Of a DNA stretch of 64,000 nucleotides, positions 32,277 through 41,320 are shown one piece after another. The position numbers and the translations under genes are program-made. Below the pieces are notes generated by a model. That model saw only the letters and a program-made list of their open reading frames with translations. It was not told the origin of the DNA and did no database searches. How positions within the stretch are numbered: position 1 is the first letter of the stretch; every line of letters starts with the position of its first letter. Origin of the DNA: Puniceicoccus vermicola (lineage in GTDB: Bacteria; Verrucomicrobiota; Verrucomicrobiia; Opitutales; Puniceicoccaceae); the NCBI RefSeq assembly GCF_014230055.1, contig NZ_JACHVA010000053.1, forward strand, positions 62,001-126,000, read 5' to 3'.

Positions 32277-33661
32277 ACGGCAAGAAGATTGCGGTCGATA
32301 GTTTCGAGTCCCGCGAGAACGGGCTGACCGAATAAAGTACTGACAGTAGCGGATTCGATGGTCACCGGAATGAGTTCGCCGATCTGGCGCTCCTTTCCGG
32401 GAAAAACGACTTTGCGGAAACCGCGGGTTCTGCCCATGAACATACCCTCCCCTTTTCGGGCTGGGCCTTCGACGAGAATCTCTACGGTTTTGCCGATTAG
32501 ACCTTGGTTGCGTTCCAATGAGTGGCGTCCGAGGATTTCGAGGAGGACCTGATTGCGGCGTTCCTTTTCTTCCTGGGGAACTTGGTCTTCCATCTCCGCT
32601 GCGGGGGTTCCCGTTCGTGGGCTGTATTTGAAAATGAAGGCCATATCGAATCGGAGCTCTTCAAAGAGCTGGCGGGTCGCTTCAAAATCTTCCTCCGTCT
32701 CTCCGGGGAAGCCAACGATGACGTCTGTAGAAAAATACATATCGGGAGCAGCTTCCCGAAGGGATTCGACGATGCGACGATAGCGTTCGACGCTGTACGG
32801 ACGCTTCATCTGCTTGAGAATCGGATCGGATCCACTTTGCAGCGGAAGGTGGACGTATTCGCACAGTTTCGGAAGATCACGATAGGCCTGGACGAGATCT
32901 TCGCGGAATCCCCTCGGATGTGGAGAGGTAAAACGGATGCGCTCGATTCCATCAATGTCATTGATTTTCTCCAACAATTGAACGAACGGAGTTTTGCCGC
33001 CGATTTTTGGGAACTCACGTTGGCCGTAGCTGGTAACGATTTGGCCGAGAAGGGTGATCTCTTTCGTGCCGGTGTCGGCGAGTCGCTTCGCTTCTTCGAC
33101 AATATCATCCATGGGTCGAGCCCGCTCCTCACCGCGGGTTTTGGGGACAATGCAAAAACTGCAACGCATGTTGCATCCTTGCATGATGGATACAAAGGCT
33201 GAAATCTTACGCGTGGATTCGTCGTGGTGACGGATCTCGTTTTGGGAAGATTTTTCTTCATCCAGATCTACCAATGTGGAGGGTCTGGGTCCCTGCCCTT
33301 CCATCGACTGAATCAAGTTGTCGAGAAGGTCCGGAACGCGGTGGAACTTCTGGGTGCCGACAAGAAGATCGAGGTCGGGGAGTTTGTCGAGGAGGTCTGT
33401 GCCTCGATTTTGGGCCATGCAGCCCATAACCCCGAGAAGGAAGTTGGGGTTACTCTTCTTTCGCTTGCGGAGGTAGCCCGCTTTGCCAATGGCTTTCTGT
33501 TCAGCTTGATCACGGACACTACAGGTGTTCAGGAGAACGGTGTCCGCTTCATGCTCGTCATGGACGATTGAATACCCACGAGCACGCAAGAGCTCCGCGA
33601 CTGCCTCCGAGTCGCGTTCGTTCATTTGGCACCCGTAGGTCTTGATGTATACGCGGTTCAT
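32273..33661 (-). CDS. miaB: tRNA-2-methylthio-N6-dimethylallyladenosine synthase
   Basis: A 462-residue methylthiotransferase, normal length. The UPF0004 N-terminal domain starts KTYGCQMNERDSEAV with the first cluster cysteine; NTCSVRDQAEQKA and GCMAQN supply the others. The radical-SAM cluster motif is CNMRCSFCIVPKTRG (about residues 165-180), and a TRAM domain forms the C-terminus (about 385-455). The enzyme adds the methylthio group to i6A37 in tRNA. It overlaps both the SDR-tail gene upstream and the membrane gene downstream by four bases. Confidence 0.95.
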   Translation of the reverse strand: MNRVYIKTYGCQMNERDSEAVAELLRARGYSIVHDEHEADTVLLNTCSVRDQAEQKAIGKAGYLRKRKKSNPNFLLGVMGCMAQNRGTDLLDKLPDLDLLVGTQKFHRVPDLLDNLIQSMEGQGPRPSTLVDLDEEKSSQNEIRHHDESTRKISAFVSIMQGCNMRCSFCIVPKTRGEERARPMDDIVEEAKRLADTGTKEITLLGQIVTSYGQREFPKIGGKTPFVQLLEKINDIDGIERIRFTSPHPRGFREDLVQAYRDLPKLCEYVHLPLQSGSDPILKQMKRPYSVERYRRIVESLREAAPDMYFSTDVIVGFPGETEEDFEATRQLFEELRFDMAFIFKYSPRTGTPAAEMEDQVPQEEKERRNQVLLEILGRHSLERNQGLIGKTVEILVEGPARKGEGMFMGRTRGFRKVVFPGKERQIGELIPVTIESATVSTLFGQPVLAGLETIDRNLLAV

Positions 33662-35073
33662 TCTGGGTCGGGAGAAGGCGGAGGTGTGGTTTCAGGTGGC
33701 GGAGTTGAATCGTCTCCGGATTTAGCGGTTTTGCGGGGAGCGCGTTTCCGGGCGGGTGCCGCTTTCTTACGAGTGGTCTTTCGGGTTGTTCGCTTCTTGG
33801 GTTTAGTGGGTTCAACGTCATCCGAAGATGAATCCACTGGGGCCCGAGTGGCCGTTTCGTCTGTGGTGGCTTCCGCTTGTTTGGATTCGTTTTCCGGTTT
33901 CCGGGTGCGGTTGTGACGGGGCCGTGGTTTCTGCTTTGGCTTGTCCTGAGTTTCCTCTGGCTTCGACTCTTCTCGCGACTCGTTTTTCGCCGGTTCGGAA
34001 TTTTCTTCCGGAGATTCTTTCTGAGGCCGACTCTTTTTGTTGCTTTCCTTTGGGGAGGATTCTTCGTCGCTCTTGGGCTGTTGATCCTTATTGGTTTCGG
34101 AGTCCGAGTCTCTGGAATCTCCATCTCCTTTTCGACGGCGGGATCTACCGCGAGAGCGGCGGCGGCGGCGGGAAGGTTTTTGATCTTGGGAAGAATCTCT
34201 GGAATCCCGGCGATCGAGTTCGTCCTCTTCCTCATCGGCGTAGTGTTCGTCGACTTCGACATCCCCATCGGTGATATCCTTGACCTCGGCAATTTGGATG
34301 TAATGCCGGGGTTTTTCCGTCGGGATCAGGATGGGCTCTTCTTCTTCGGTTCCACCTTCGGGGAGTACGGTGGTCTGGTAGGGATCCATCCCGGAAACCA
34401 GGTTTGGGAAGACGCCGACGGGCCCGAGGCTGCGCGGAGTGATGTGCATCTCGCGGACGATGCAGGTTTCTTTCTGGCGCAGGATGATCTCGAAGGCGCG
34501 GGAAACGGAATCGGCTACGTCCTGATAGACAGTGCTGTCTTCGTTTTCCTCTTCGGGGTAGGCGTAAAGAATTCGAGCCGAACGGAGTCCGGCTGCGGCG
34601 TTGCGAATAAACAGATCGTCGTAGGCCTTCCGCATGGAATCTTCGAAATAGCCGGGGGCTACCGAGAGATCCTTGGCGACGGGACGGCGATGGCCGTGGA
34701 TGAGGAACCCTTTGCTCTTTTTCAGCGCTCCGAGACAGACGCTCGCGGCGAGCAGCGGCTCGGTAAGACATCCGTGGAGTCGTCGAACCAATGCCTCTGG
34801 GGAACTGTTTTCCCACCCGGTGGTGATTTCTGGCCCACCCAAGCCGACGAGAAGGTCGAGACGACCTTCGGCCGCAAGGGCTTCTTCCAGCGCTCCTTTC
34901 AGTTCGGCCAATTTGCCGGGACCGTAAGAGTGGGGAATATAATACCGGCTGTCATAGCCAGCGGGGTCGGGGTTTTGGCCTAGCGCGTGAATTCGGAACC
35001 CCATTTTGAGGAGTGTCCGGCATACGGCGTCGCCGAATCGAGTATCGGCACCTGTGACTATCGCAACATCCAT
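33658..35073 (-). CDS. Degenerate SDR-fold protein with long charged tail
   Basis: A 471-residue fusion-like protein. Residues 1-270 form an SDR/Rossmann domain: MDVAIVTGADTRFGDAVCR corresponds to the TGxxxGxG loop (here TGADTRFG), and a central LDLLVGLGGPE stretch follows. The catalytic YxxxK is not seen where expected (GYFEDSMRKAYDDL), so dehydrogenase activity is doubtful. From about residue 281 the protein is low-complexity: acidic first, then Arg-rich (SRRRRRSRGRSRRRKG), then Glu/Lys/Pro/Ser/Thr-rich to the end, with KRTTRKTTRKKAAPARKRAPRK recalling RNA/DNA-binding tails. It overlaps miaB by four bases. Confidence 0.75.
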   Translation of the reverse strand: MDVAIVTGADTRFGDAVCRTLLKMGFRIHALGQNPDPAGYDSRYYIPHSYGPGKLAELKGALEEALAAEGRLDLLVGLGGPEITTGWENSSPEALVRRLHGCLTEPLLAASVCLGALKKSKGFLIHGHRRPVAKDLSVAPGYFEDSMRKAYDDLFIRNAAAGLRSARILYAYPEEENEDSTVYQDVADSVSRAFEIILRQKETCIVREMHITPRSLGPVGVFPNLVSGMDPYQTTVLPEGGTEEEEPILIPTEKPRHYIQIAEVKDITDGDVEVDEHYADEEEDELDRRDSRDSSQDQKPSRRRRRSRGRSRRRKGDGDSRDSDSETNKDQQPKSDEESSPKESNKKSRPQKESPEENSEPAKNESREESKPEETQDKPKQKPRPRHNRTRKPENESKQAEATTDETATRAPVDSSSDDVEPTKPKKRTTRKTTRKKAAPARKRAPRKTAKSGDDSTPPPETTPPPSPDPE

Positions 35074-37395: not shown

Positions 37396-38208
37396 CTATC
37401 CATTGTTTTCGGATGAATTGTCCTCTGAGGGCATACCGATGTTCCCATGCCCGGAGCGGACAAAAGCGTAAACACTATAAGCCATGAGTCCGAGGCCGAC
37501 TGCCGAAATGAGCCACCGTCCGAAAGCCTGATCGTGGATCGTGTCGAGAGCCCCTCCAATGCCCTGCGCTTCATCTGGATCCAGGAACCAGACGGCTCGA
37601 AATAGGTAGGCGGCGATGAGGAGGATGAGGATGCTCCGGGTCATGTAGCCTACGGTGCAGGTCCAGAGGATTAGGCTGCGAACCTTCTTGGAGTAAGAGC
37701 TGAGATCGAGTTGATCGGCAAAAGTTTTCGCGATGCCACAGTAGGCTTGATAGGCTCCGATGCCGAGAACCACAACAAAGACGACACCGAGAAGCCACCT
37801 TCCCAGTGGAAAAGACAAAATCAGCGAACTCCAGCTCTCCGCGCTATCATCGCTCGATTCGGCGCTGCCTGAGAGGGCTTTGATGGCGAGAAAAGTGATC
37901 CCAAGAAAGGTGACGCCGATGACAAAATAGGCCACCCTCATCGGCCACTTCTCATCCTCGGTGTTCAGAAACGCCTGGGTCATTCGCCAAACGACAAAGC
38001 ATATGAGCCCAAGGATCAGGACACAGAGAAGAACTTTACCGAAAGGTTGCTCTACGATGAATAATAGGACTCCGGCTGAGTCCTTTTCGTCGGAGGTGGT
38101 AAGTCCTGCAGCGATCGCAAAGCCGCCGATGAGAAGATAAATGAGTCCATGCGAGATGTACCCAGCGGTCGATGTGATTCGGACCAGTTGGTCGACTTTG
38201 TTTTTCAC
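37396..38208 (-). CDS. DUF1206 membrane protein
   Basis: A 270-residue protein with about six helices arranged as three two-helix repeats, each starting with a GYISHGLIYLLIG-like or GYMTRSILILLIA-like motif. This triplicated pattern is typical of DUF1206, a membrane family of unknown function. The C-terminus is polar and Ser/Asn-rich. It starts 30 bases after the stop of the LigD-PE-like gene on the same strand, so the two form a probable pair. Confidence 0.8.
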   Translation of the reverse strand: MKNKVDQLVRITSTAGYISHGLIYLLIGGFAIAAGLTTSDEKDSAGVLLFIVEQPFGKVLLCVLILGLICFVVWRMTQAFLNTEDEKWPMRVAYFVIGVTFLGITFLAIKALSGSAESSDDSAESWSSLILSFPLGRWLLGVVFVVVLGIGAYQAYCGIAKTFADQLDLSSYSKKVRSLILWTCTVGYMTRSILILLIAAYLFRAVWFLDPDEAQGIGGALDTIHDQAFGRWLISAVGLGLMAYSVYAFVRSGHGNIGMPSEDNSSENNG

Positions 38209-38238: not shown

Positions 38239-39225
38239 TTATCGACTGTTTCGAATATTTTGGAAAGAAGCGTGGCGTAGGAGCCCGCTGGGAGTTTTCG
38301 CGGTGAAGCGAATCTCGGCGATCTGAGAGGGGCGCACCCATTGGGCATCGTCCGGAACCAGTTCGCTTTCTTCTCCGAGGGGAGATGTTTTGCGTTGGAG
38401 CCGTTGTAAGCGCTTCCCGATTGTTTCCAAATTCTCATCGGTGAACCCGACGCCGACTTTGCCAACGTACTGAAGAGAGCCGTCTTTTTGCGGAGTGGCG
38501 AGAAGGAGTGAGCGAAAGCTTCCTCGATTCTCGCTGGGAATCCACCCGACGACGGTGAATTCTTCCTGCCCTCCGGAAGGCTTTTCAAGATCGGCTGGGT
38601 TTCGGGTCGGTTTTTCCTCTGGCGACTGGGTTGGAGTCGGAGTTTGTTTATCTTCGATGGTCTCCCCGCTGAGAATGCTTTCGGGCTTGGCCGAAGTGAC
38701 GGTCTTGCGACGTCCGTCTGTCTCGGCGTATTCGTCGTCGACTTTCGTCAGGACCCATTGATCTTCATGGTCTCCTTTGCCTTTCTGGGTGCGGACTAAA
38801 TCGAACGCTCCGCGAAGCTTCTTCCCTTTCAGGCGAAGGCGGAGTTTTCCTTTTTTCAGCGATTTCTTGGTCTTGCCCTCGACCTTGATGCGCCCTTGGT
38901 CCCAGATAATTATCTCCCCTTCTCCGTACTGGCCGCTGGGAATAGGACCTTCGAAAAAGGCGTACTCAACCGGATGATCTTCGGTAGCGACCGCGACCCG
39001 TTTTTTGGAGGGGTTCAGGGAAGGACCTTTCGGGAGGATCCAGCTCTTCAGGACTTTTTTGTGAGAAAAGCGGAAATCATAGTGAAGCGTGCTGGAGGCG
39101 TGCTTCTGGACAACGAAGAGTCGGTGCGCGGGTTTGCGCCCTTTCTTTTTGCCTTTGGGCTCGTTGGTAATCGTGAAATCCCGCTTGGAGCGGTAAGGTC
39201 TAAGTTTGGCTTTTGCGTTTCCCAT
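38239..39225 (-). CDS. LigD-type 3'-phosphoesterase fused to a ligase OB domain, no ligase core
   Basis: A 328-residue protein. Residues 1-165 are a LigD phosphoesterase domain with its catalytic set visible (His42, His48, Asp50, Arg52, His84, Tyr88), which in LigD trims 3' ends during repair. A Ser/Thr/Pro-rich linker (about 170-222) leads to residues 224-325, which match the C-terminal OB domain of ATP-dependent ligases (FTVVGW, YVGKVGVGF, IAEIRFTAKT, LLRHASF). The adenylation domain and its KxDG lysine motif are absent, so it cannot ligate DNA alone. No Ku or polymerase module is nearby. It pairs with the DUF1206 gene. Confidence 0.85.
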   Translation of the reverse strand: MGNAKAKLRPYRSKRDFTITNEPKGKKKGRKPAHRLFVVQKHASSTLHYDFRFSHKKVLKSWILPKGPSLNPSKKRVAVATEDHPVEYAFFEGPIPSGQYGEGEIIIWDQGRIKVEGKTKKSLKKGKLRLRLKGKKLRGAFDLVRTQKGKGDHEDQWVLTKVDDEYAETDGRRKTVTSAKPESILSGETIEDKQTPTPTQSPEEKPTRNPADLEKPSGGQEEFTVVGWIPSENRGSFRSLLLATPQKDGSLQYVGKVGVGFTDENLETIGKRLQRLQRKTSPLGEESELVPDDAQWVRPSQIAEIRFTAKTPSGLLRHASFQNIRNSR

Positions 39226-39347: not shown

Positions 39348-40676
39348 TTAATGCTGGTGGGGAACTCGACGTAATCGTATTCGGGCCACCACTCCGAGGA
39401 CGACTAGCGTGAGCAGGAACCAGGGGGCGAAGTAGCTGAGGGCTTCGCGGAAGGCTTGGTCTCCGGTGGCTCCGTTGGCTTTGAGGGACTGGATCAATCC
39501 TCCGTAAAGGAGTGAGATGGAGCCATAGCCAAGGTTCATGGCGAGTCCGCGGAAGCTGAGGACGGTTGCCCGGTGTCGCGAATCGACTTCGCGGTTTAGA
39601 TAGTGGCTCAGGAAGAAGTCGGTGAACCGCATCGCGACCATGGTGGTTACCCCAAAGATGATCCCCCACCCCGGCAAGAGGAAGGAGAGGCCGAATAGGG
39701 ATCCGGTGAGCCAAATGGCGAGGATCGTGGTATTGGTTGGAAGAGATAGGCTCTCGACCATCTTTCGCGCTACCCGAGGTAAGAGGAGCCCGAGAAGGGC
39801 GATCCCGGCACCAATCAGACCATAATAGGCCTCGGGAACCCCGATGTTCCGAAAGTATTCACTGGTGAGGGTCGCGAAGACTCGTCCAATGCTGTCATAG
39901 AAGAGACCTCCCAAGATGAGAAGAAAAGGAATGGGAGAACGGAGGATCCACTTTCCCGTGCGGAGAGTGTCTCTCCAAGGATCCATCGGTTCGGCTGGGG
40001 TCTCTTCGCTGGAAATGGTGCCATGGCTCTCGGTCATACGCCATGCGCACCAAAAGGCTCCGACGGAGGTGACCAGTGTGAGGTAGAGTGGCCAGTGAAG
40101 GGTATCCTCTTGGGTCCACTCCCGTGAGATTCCCAGCCACCCGGAGATCCGAGCAGCAAAATTGGGATCATAGACCGCAGCCCCCGCAACCATGGCGACG
40201 AAGAATCCGACGCTCTGCAATTTCATCAGCGCCTCCAGAACCCGGGGCCACTCCCCTTCCCTGCCGATTTCACTGAGTGAATCGTAGGCGAGAGACTCGT
40301 CCGCTCCACTCGCCGCGGCCTCGGCTACGCCGGATAGAATACGGTTCAGGAGGAATATCCAGAAGAGCCATGGGGTGACCCCGGCGGGAGTCAGGCAGAT
40401 CAAGAGCATCTCCAGAAACATGAAGATACCAGCGAGGCGGACCAGGCGTCGCCGACCCCATCGATCAGCCAGAGCCCCAGAGGGCACCTCGGCCAGGAGA
40501 ATGGTTGCAGCCCAGGCCGCATTGAGGATGGAAAACTGCTCGAGCGTTAATCCGAAATCCAAAAAGAGGATGGTGAAGATCGGATAATAGAAGCGCGCGT
40601 TGAAGAGAACACGAAAGCCGATGAAAAGCCGGATATTCGGGATGCGGAGTACGCTGTTCGACTCCGGGGAACTCAT
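39348..40676 (-). CDS. Major facilitator superfamily transporter
   Basis: A 442-residue protein with 11-12 transmembrane helices and the inter-helix loop-2 motif of MFS (GALADRWGRRRLVRLAG, about residues 65-80). The central loop is charged. The substrate is unknown, and no sugar or drug signature stands out. The start is the ATG at 40676, which overlaps the stop of the HAD gene by four bases; a longer frame to 40778 gives an Arg/Pro-rich N-terminus that runs inside the HAD gene and is unlikely. Confidence 0.88.
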   Translation of the reverse strand: MSSPESNSVLRIPNIRLFIGFRVLFNARFYYPIFTILFLDFGLTLEQFSILNAAWAATILLAEVPSGALADRWGRRRLVRLAGIFMFLEMLLICLTPAGVTPWLFWIFLLNRILSGVAEAAASGADESLAYDSLSEIGREGEWPRVLEALMKLQSVGFFVAMVAGAAVYDPNFAARISGWLGISREWTQEDTLHWPLYLTLVTSVGAFWCAWRMTESHGTISSEETPAEPMDPWRDTLRTGKWILRSPIPFLLILGGLFYDSIGRVFATLTSEYFRNIGVPEAYYGLIGAGIALLGLLLPRVARKMVESLSLPTNTTILAIWLTGSLFGLSFLLPGWGIIFGVTTMVAMRFTDFFLSHYLNREVDSRHRATVLSFRGLAMNLGYGSISLLYGGLIQSLKANGATGDQAFREALSYFAPWFLLTLVVLGVVARIRLRRVPHQH

Positions 40677-41320
40677 GAATGGAGCCAATCCCCGAGCTCC
40701 GCGAAGCCGTTTACGACGGGGCAGCCGGCTCGGCCCAGTCGCTCCGGGGAATGATGGCCGTGGGCCACGAGAAGGCATTGGATTCCCATCGCCTCGGCGA
40801 CCTTATGGTCGTGGAGGGTGTCCCCAATGAGGACGACCTTTTGCGGATCGAGTCCTGAGGCGTTGATCCAGTCGATGCCCCTCTCCTCCTTTCCGTGCGC
40901 GAAGATATCCTTGGCTCCCAGGAGCCTGTCAAAACACTCCTCGAAGCCGTAGATTTTGACGGCGAGCTCGAGGGCTGACTGTTGGGCCGCCGAGAGGACG
41001 GACTGGGGTTGGTTTTCACGGGCCAAATCGTGGATTAAGTCATAAGCCCCCGGATGGAGGGGGCAGGATTCGGCCAACTCATTGTAGCGCGAGATGAACT
41101 GATGGGAGGTGGCCTCGAAGTCGGTTTTCTCGGTGGGAAAGCCCAGCGAACGATAGAATTCGATGACGGGGAAATCGAAAGTCTCCCGATAGTGGTCGTG
41201 GGAGATTGGGTTCAGCCCCCTCTCCTTCATCAGTTCATTGAGAACATCGACGCAGATCGTAGTGTCTGCGAGAAGGGTTCCGTTCCAATCCCAGAGGATA
41301 TGTTGCCAATCGCGTCTCAC
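40673..41320 (-). CDS. HAD-family phosphatase (phosphoglycolate phosphatase-like)
   Basis: A 215-residue HAD hydrolase. Motif I is DWNGTLL instead of DxDGT (nucleophile Asp kept, second acid Asn). Motif II Ser and motif III Lys lie in VLSAAQQS and HGKEER. Motif IV is VVLIGDTLHDHKVA. The size and cap region fit class I, phosphoglycolate-phosphatase-like enzymes. The replaced second aspartate normally acts as general acid, so phosphatase activity may be altered. The start is GTG at 41320, with an AAGG just upstream. It is coupled to the MFS gene. Confidence 0.82.
   Translation of the reverse strand: MRRDWQHILWDWNGTLLADTTICVDVLNELMKERGLNPISHDHYRETFDFPVIEFYRSLGFPTEKTDFEATSHQFISRYNELAESCPLHPGAYDLIHDLARENQPQSVLSAAQQSALELAVKIYGFEECFDRLLGAKDIFAHGKEERGIDWINASGLDPQKVVLIGDTLHDHKVAEAMGIQCLLVAHGHHSPERLGRAGCPVVNGFAELGDWLHS

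Follow-up and report, generated by a model that had tools for sequence, protein, structure and literature searches.

A LigD-type protein of Verrucomicrobiota that keeps the phosphoesterase and OB domains and lacks the ligase core

Architecture of the PE-OB locus

The stretch of DNA analyzed here (64 kb, hereafter the window) encodes on its minus strand a protein that joins an N-terminal 3'-phosphoesterase (PE) domain to a C-terminal ligase-type OB domain, which we refer to as PE-OB. The features of this gene and of the one that follows it are listed below, with the evidence for each in brackets.

38239..39225, minus strand: PE-linker-OB protein, 328 aa, ATG start (ORF call, Pfam, ortholog L002)
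38731..39225, minus strand: 3'-phosphoesterase domain and N-terminal arm, residues 1-165 (Pfam, NCBIfam, Foldseek match of the AlphaFold2 model)
38572..38730, minus strand: C-terminal edge of the PE domain and Pro/Ser/Thr/Glu-rich linker that replaces the NTase, residues 166-218 (AlphaFold2 pLDDT, spacing comparison)
38242..38571, minus strand: ligase-type OB domain ending in a degenerate motif VI, residues 219-328 (Pfam, motif VI comparison, fold match)
37396..38208, minus strand: DUF1206 membrane-protein gene, 30 bp downstream of PE-OB (Pfam, presence/absence, synteny)

Pfam profiles placed LigD_N (PF13298) at residues 40-145 (E 8e-38, over the full profile length) and DNA_ligase_A_C (PF04679) at residues 234-326 (85 bits against a cut-off of 27.5; E 5e-24), with no match to DNA_ligase_A_M (PF01068) in the 328-aa protein and nothing between the PE and OB matches. 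An earlier reading, made from the sequence only, had described this frame as a LigD-like protein lacking the ligase core, with a ligase OB domain in its last 100 or so residues, and the profiles bear out both statements. Similarly, the NCBIfam model of the LigD PE domain (TIGR02777) scored 199 bits (cut-off 144), and the scores of the full-length LigD models fell far under their cut-offs. For each half of the protein, LigD-type models were the best, over those of other ligase types, as expected if the middle domain had been lost. In the AlphaFold2 model (mean pLDDT 85.5, pTM 0.59), the PE and OB domains are confident and the linker is disordered.

The sequence-only reading had further proposed that a linker replaces the adenylation (NTase) domain, and this also proved correct: the linker is short, rich in Pro, Ser, Thr and Glu, and predicted by AlphaFold2 to be disordered between residues 196 and 216 (pLDDT <50). 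The spacing from PE to OB amounts to 54 aa in the window protein and in its ortholog (see below) versus 202-321 aa in the full LigDs compared. None of the frames in the 64 kb window matched a 192-aa LigD NTase core in a tblastn search. Alignment with the LigD of genome G042, which adjoins Ku, puts the cut between the post-PE linker and the OB start (RQEFVIVGY), so that NTase motifs I, III, IIIa, IV and V are all removed, including KxDG and the KxK of motif V. We infer that the NTase was removed by in-frame loss from a LigD-type ancestor.

A complete phosphoesterase site and a ligase OB domain without motif VI

The six phosphoesterase residues named in the earlier reading (His42, His48, Asp50, Arg52, His84 and Tyr88) were all found at exactly these numbers, which renders the His-His-Asp metal site and the Arg-His-Tyr phosphate site of the LigD 3'-phosphoesterase superfamily complete in PE-OB. 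Both orthologs additionally have Q40, K66 and E82, as well as K14-R15-D16 and E22 in the N-terminal part. The roles of the six residues, and of Gln40 and Glu82, have been reviewed for the PE domain of P. aeruginosa LigD, which, according to that review, is inactivated by mutation of these catalytic residues (PMC8656161). The PE half of the AlphaFold2 model fits PDB 3n9b with a TM-score of 0.92 by target (Foldseek), and of the 58 PE columns with a conservation of 85% or more among LigDs, 47 are kept by both orthologs. Some non-catalytic columns are altered (e.g., E54 to S and G57 to K), and these substitutions could change the specificity. As far as sequence can tell, 3'-end cleaning by PE-OB fits the complete set of catalytic residues.

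The OB half of the model fits the OB domain of M. tuberculosis LigD (1vs0) with an rmsd of 1.7 A over 112 columns (Foldseek), and most OB blocks reach an AlphaFold2 confidence of around 90 or higher. Sixteen of the 24 OB columns with at least 85% conservation in LigDs are unchanged in both species, including structural Gly, Phe and Trp residues. Motif VI (RxDK), kept in all 32 LigD and ligase sequences compared, reads RNSR in the window protein and RYRK in the ortholog, with the stop codon directly after this degenerate motif in both. This loss of motif VI from the OB domain had been overlooked in the earlier reading. A C-terminal frameshift masking the motif was rejected, since the three frames beyond the stop hold no DKPAREV-like continuation in either genome. 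With the NTase lost and motif VI degenerate, the OB domain stands outside any ligase active site.

Comparison with known systems sets PE-OB apart from each of them. LigD (PE-NTase-OB or PE-NTase-OB-POL, e.g., that of G042 beside Ku or that of P. aeruginosa) likewise begins with a PE domain bearing these catalytic residues, and the G042 protein shares about 48% identity with PE-OB over the PE domain and 40-42% over the OB domain; however, PE-OB lacks the NTase and POL domains, has a degenerate motif VI and is encoded in a genome without Ku. Of the features of LigD, PE-OB has the PE domain, which is an optional module there, and an OB domain; the KxDG NTase core, the RxDK of motif VI and a Ku partner are missing. 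Stand-alone PEs (the Methanocella, Methanosarcina and Korarchaeum structures 5dmp, 3p43 and 3p4h, and L038 and L039 of Halomonas) display the same fold and active site unattached to a ligase, but are devoid of the linker and OB domain of PE-OB. LigC and the core ATP ligases (NTase-OB) carry an OB domain of the same family (PF04679) and an NTase, in place of which PE-OB has a PE domain. As a side observation, the short frames L038 and L039 (Halomonas) and L040 (Methanothrix) match the PE domain and not the OB domain, and apparently encode stand-alone PEs.

An ortholog under purifying selection and a narrow distribution

An ortholog (L002) was found in genome G002 (record DGMY01000085.1, Opitutia bacterium UBA4506, Verrucomicrobiota), which belongs to the same genus. 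The two proteins are 65% identical and share domain order, the 54-aa spacing and neighboring genes. Synonymous sites are saturated across the pair (overall pS 0.77) and pN is low (0.25 overall), which indicates purifying selection on PE-OB.

We surveyed two overlapping sets of 388 genomes of the phylum and 373 genomes of the order. PE and OB occur together in one short frame only in G000, the window's genome, and in G002; the other sampled genomes have a full PE-NTase-OB, a PE domain otherwise arranged, a PE domain alone, or an OB domain within an ordinary ligase. The search for PE-linker-OB proteins without KxDG in other genomes, which the sequence-only reading had put forward, was thus rewarded by the ortholog in G002 and by no other protein in the phylum and order samples. 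No relative was found in IMG/VR with the few, narrow patterns used; the scans of genome contigs were of the same kind and in-depth sampling covered Verrucomicrobiota, so that the rarity of PE-OB holds within this phylum. The open-access literature yielded no description of a PE-OB protein, and trees of the PE and OB domains did not resolve the parent LigD clade.

A phage or plasmid origin was also considered and discarded, given that no phage record matches both halves (the matches are to the OB half of ordinary ligases) and that, among the plasmid matches listed, the two halves span at least about 1.5 kb, as in a full LigD.

Genomic neighborhood

The DUF1206 gene downstream of PE-OB is probably co-transcribed with it. 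Among the four family genomes examined (G000-G003), both genes are present in G000 and G002, and both are absent from G001 and G003. The flanking genes (SDR, deacetylase-like, MFS, HAD and RecA) are conserved in G001, with different genes filling the slot that separates the deacetylase gene from the MFS gene. Shared presence and absence within conserved flanks indicate that PE-OB and DUF1206 were acquired or lost jointly; that they are also linked in function is only a suggestion. DUF1206 is rare, scoring above cut-off in 7 of the 388 phylum genomes. A general linkage of DUF1206 to LigD was not supported, as its above-cut-off co-occurrence with a PE domain in the phylum sample is confined to the two PE-OB genomes, and its plasmid matches did not point to linkage either.

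Several further observations concern this region. In G001, the slot (L078 2183-6947, G001:C10) holds a sigma-54-type regulator, a VIT/VWA-like protein and a small membrane protein (all named by eye) in place of DUF2490-DUF1206-PE-OB, and is therefore variable within the genus. The MFS (39348-40778) and HAD-hydrolase (40673-41320) frames of the window, both on the minus strand, overlap by 106 bp; the MFS start probably lies further downstream, as the shorter G001 and G002 orthologs suggest. The SDR-like protein (33658-35073, minus strand) carries a long, charged, K/R/E-rich low-complexity C-terminal tail; it is conserved in G002, and G001 matches its first 300 residues only.

Ligases, Ku and the function of PE-OB

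We then compared the ligase and Ku complements of the four family genomes. The single ATP ligase of G000 is of the TIGR04120 'cisplatin damage response' type and lies beside a TIGR04122 exonuclease.

G000:C101:17043-20579 (locus L011): ligase-associated DNA damage-response genes (TIGR04120 ligase and TIGR04122 exonuclease), separate from PE-OB

The TIGR04120 ligase is also found in G001 and G003, and no ATP ligase of any kind was found in G002, nor any LigD-type ligase in the window's genome. All four genomes encode the NAD-dependent LigA, which is hence the only ligase common to the two with PE-OB. Profile searches for Ku (PF02735), a possible companion raised by the earlier reading, gave no match in G000, G001, G002 or G003, whereas the same search recovered Ku in G042 and in the B. 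subtilis control. The four family genomes are MAGs of 96-99% completeness, and gaps in the assemblies could account for the absence of a Ku or ligase gene. The absence of Ku from both PE-OB genomes argues against a role in NHEJ.

Taking these data together, we consider it probable that PE-OB is a functional stand-alone 3'-end-healing enzyme derived from a LigD-type protein, which would act independently of Ku with its OB domain docking and LigA sealing. In this account, the catalysis, what the OB domain does and which ligase seals are inferences. Characterized PE relatives use Mn2+ as divalent metal. The PE domain, using a divalent metal, would first take off a 3'-terminal ribonucleoside and next the 3'-phosphate, so that a 3'-OH is left; the OB domain, as a tethered module, would dock the enzyme on nicks or ends, or on a repair partner; and NAD-dependent LigA would seal in trans. 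The function would then be single-strand-break or gap repair without Ku, outside NHEJ. A further-reaching version, in which the ligase OB was exapted as a nick- or end-docking or LigA-binding module and forms with the co-inherited DUF1206 protein a previously undescribed Ku-independent end-repair module, is speculative and seems to us rather unlikely.

The main rival explanation, to which we also give a minor share of probability, is that the PE domain alone is functional, working like the archaeal and Halomonas PE-only enzymes, while the OB domain, left over from the LigD ancestor, is in decay and tolerated as it folds by itself. In the ortholog pair, the OB domain indeed diverges faster than the PE domain (55% versus 77% identity; pN 0.33 versus 0.17, and 0.35 for the linker). 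This identity gap of 22 points is high and within the range of LigD pairs (9.4 +/- 8.0, maximum 25.6). The loss of motif VI, where the protein ends, and the existence of PE-only proteins (L038-L040) point the same way, as does an OB net charge that is not consistently positive and not conserved between the orthologs (pI 9.3 in the window protein versus 6.9). However, the OB domain is constrained, with a dN of about 0.43 and a dS of about 3.7 (near saturation) yielding a ratio near 0.12, and it retains two-thirds of its highly conserved columns and a confidently predicted fold, which speaks against a mere remnant.

An OB domain working in trans with the NTase of the TIGR04120 ATP ligase, which would add 3'-end healing to that pathway, is improbable. 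The earlier suggestion that PE-OB works with a separate ligase stood insofar as G000 does encode this ligase next to its exonuclease. However, the ligase has its own OB domain, the Asp of motif VI is absent from that of PE-OB, and the two genes do not travel together: G002 has PE-OB and lacks an ATP ligase, and G001 and G003 have the ligase and lack PE-OB. An ATP-ligase partner cannot therefore be a general requirement of PE-OB.

A role of PE-OB within NHEJ, with Ku, polymerase and ligase components encoded elsewhere and missed in incomplete MAGs, is about as improbable. Both of its domains are LigD-type, and some species encode LigD domains as separate operonic genes (PMC5663958); nonetheless, we rejected an NHEJ module with a distant Ku because none of the four nearly complete family genomes has Ku, in the face of positive searches in G042 and B. 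subtilis, and the window's genome has no LigD-type ligase.

Finally, although the architecture resembles a LigD with its middle cut out, misassembly or a pseudogene (a LigD gene that collapsed or suffered a deletion, with the adenylation domain in a neighboring frame) is refuted to near certainty by the ortholog in an independent MAG, with which the open, stop-free frame under purifying selection and the tblastn search for the NTase agree.

Discussion

LigD is generally portrayed as a tool of NHEJ with cooperating parts. PE-OB is an unusual variant within this well-known family, in which the end-cleaning and DNA-holding parts have been kept and the joining part has been lost. Its reach is limited to two genomes of one genus. 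Lacking the NTase, Ku and, in G002, any ATP ligase, PE-OB would allow a direct test of whether LigD-type end healing serves repair outside NHEJ, and of what a ligase OB domain can do once freed from ligation.
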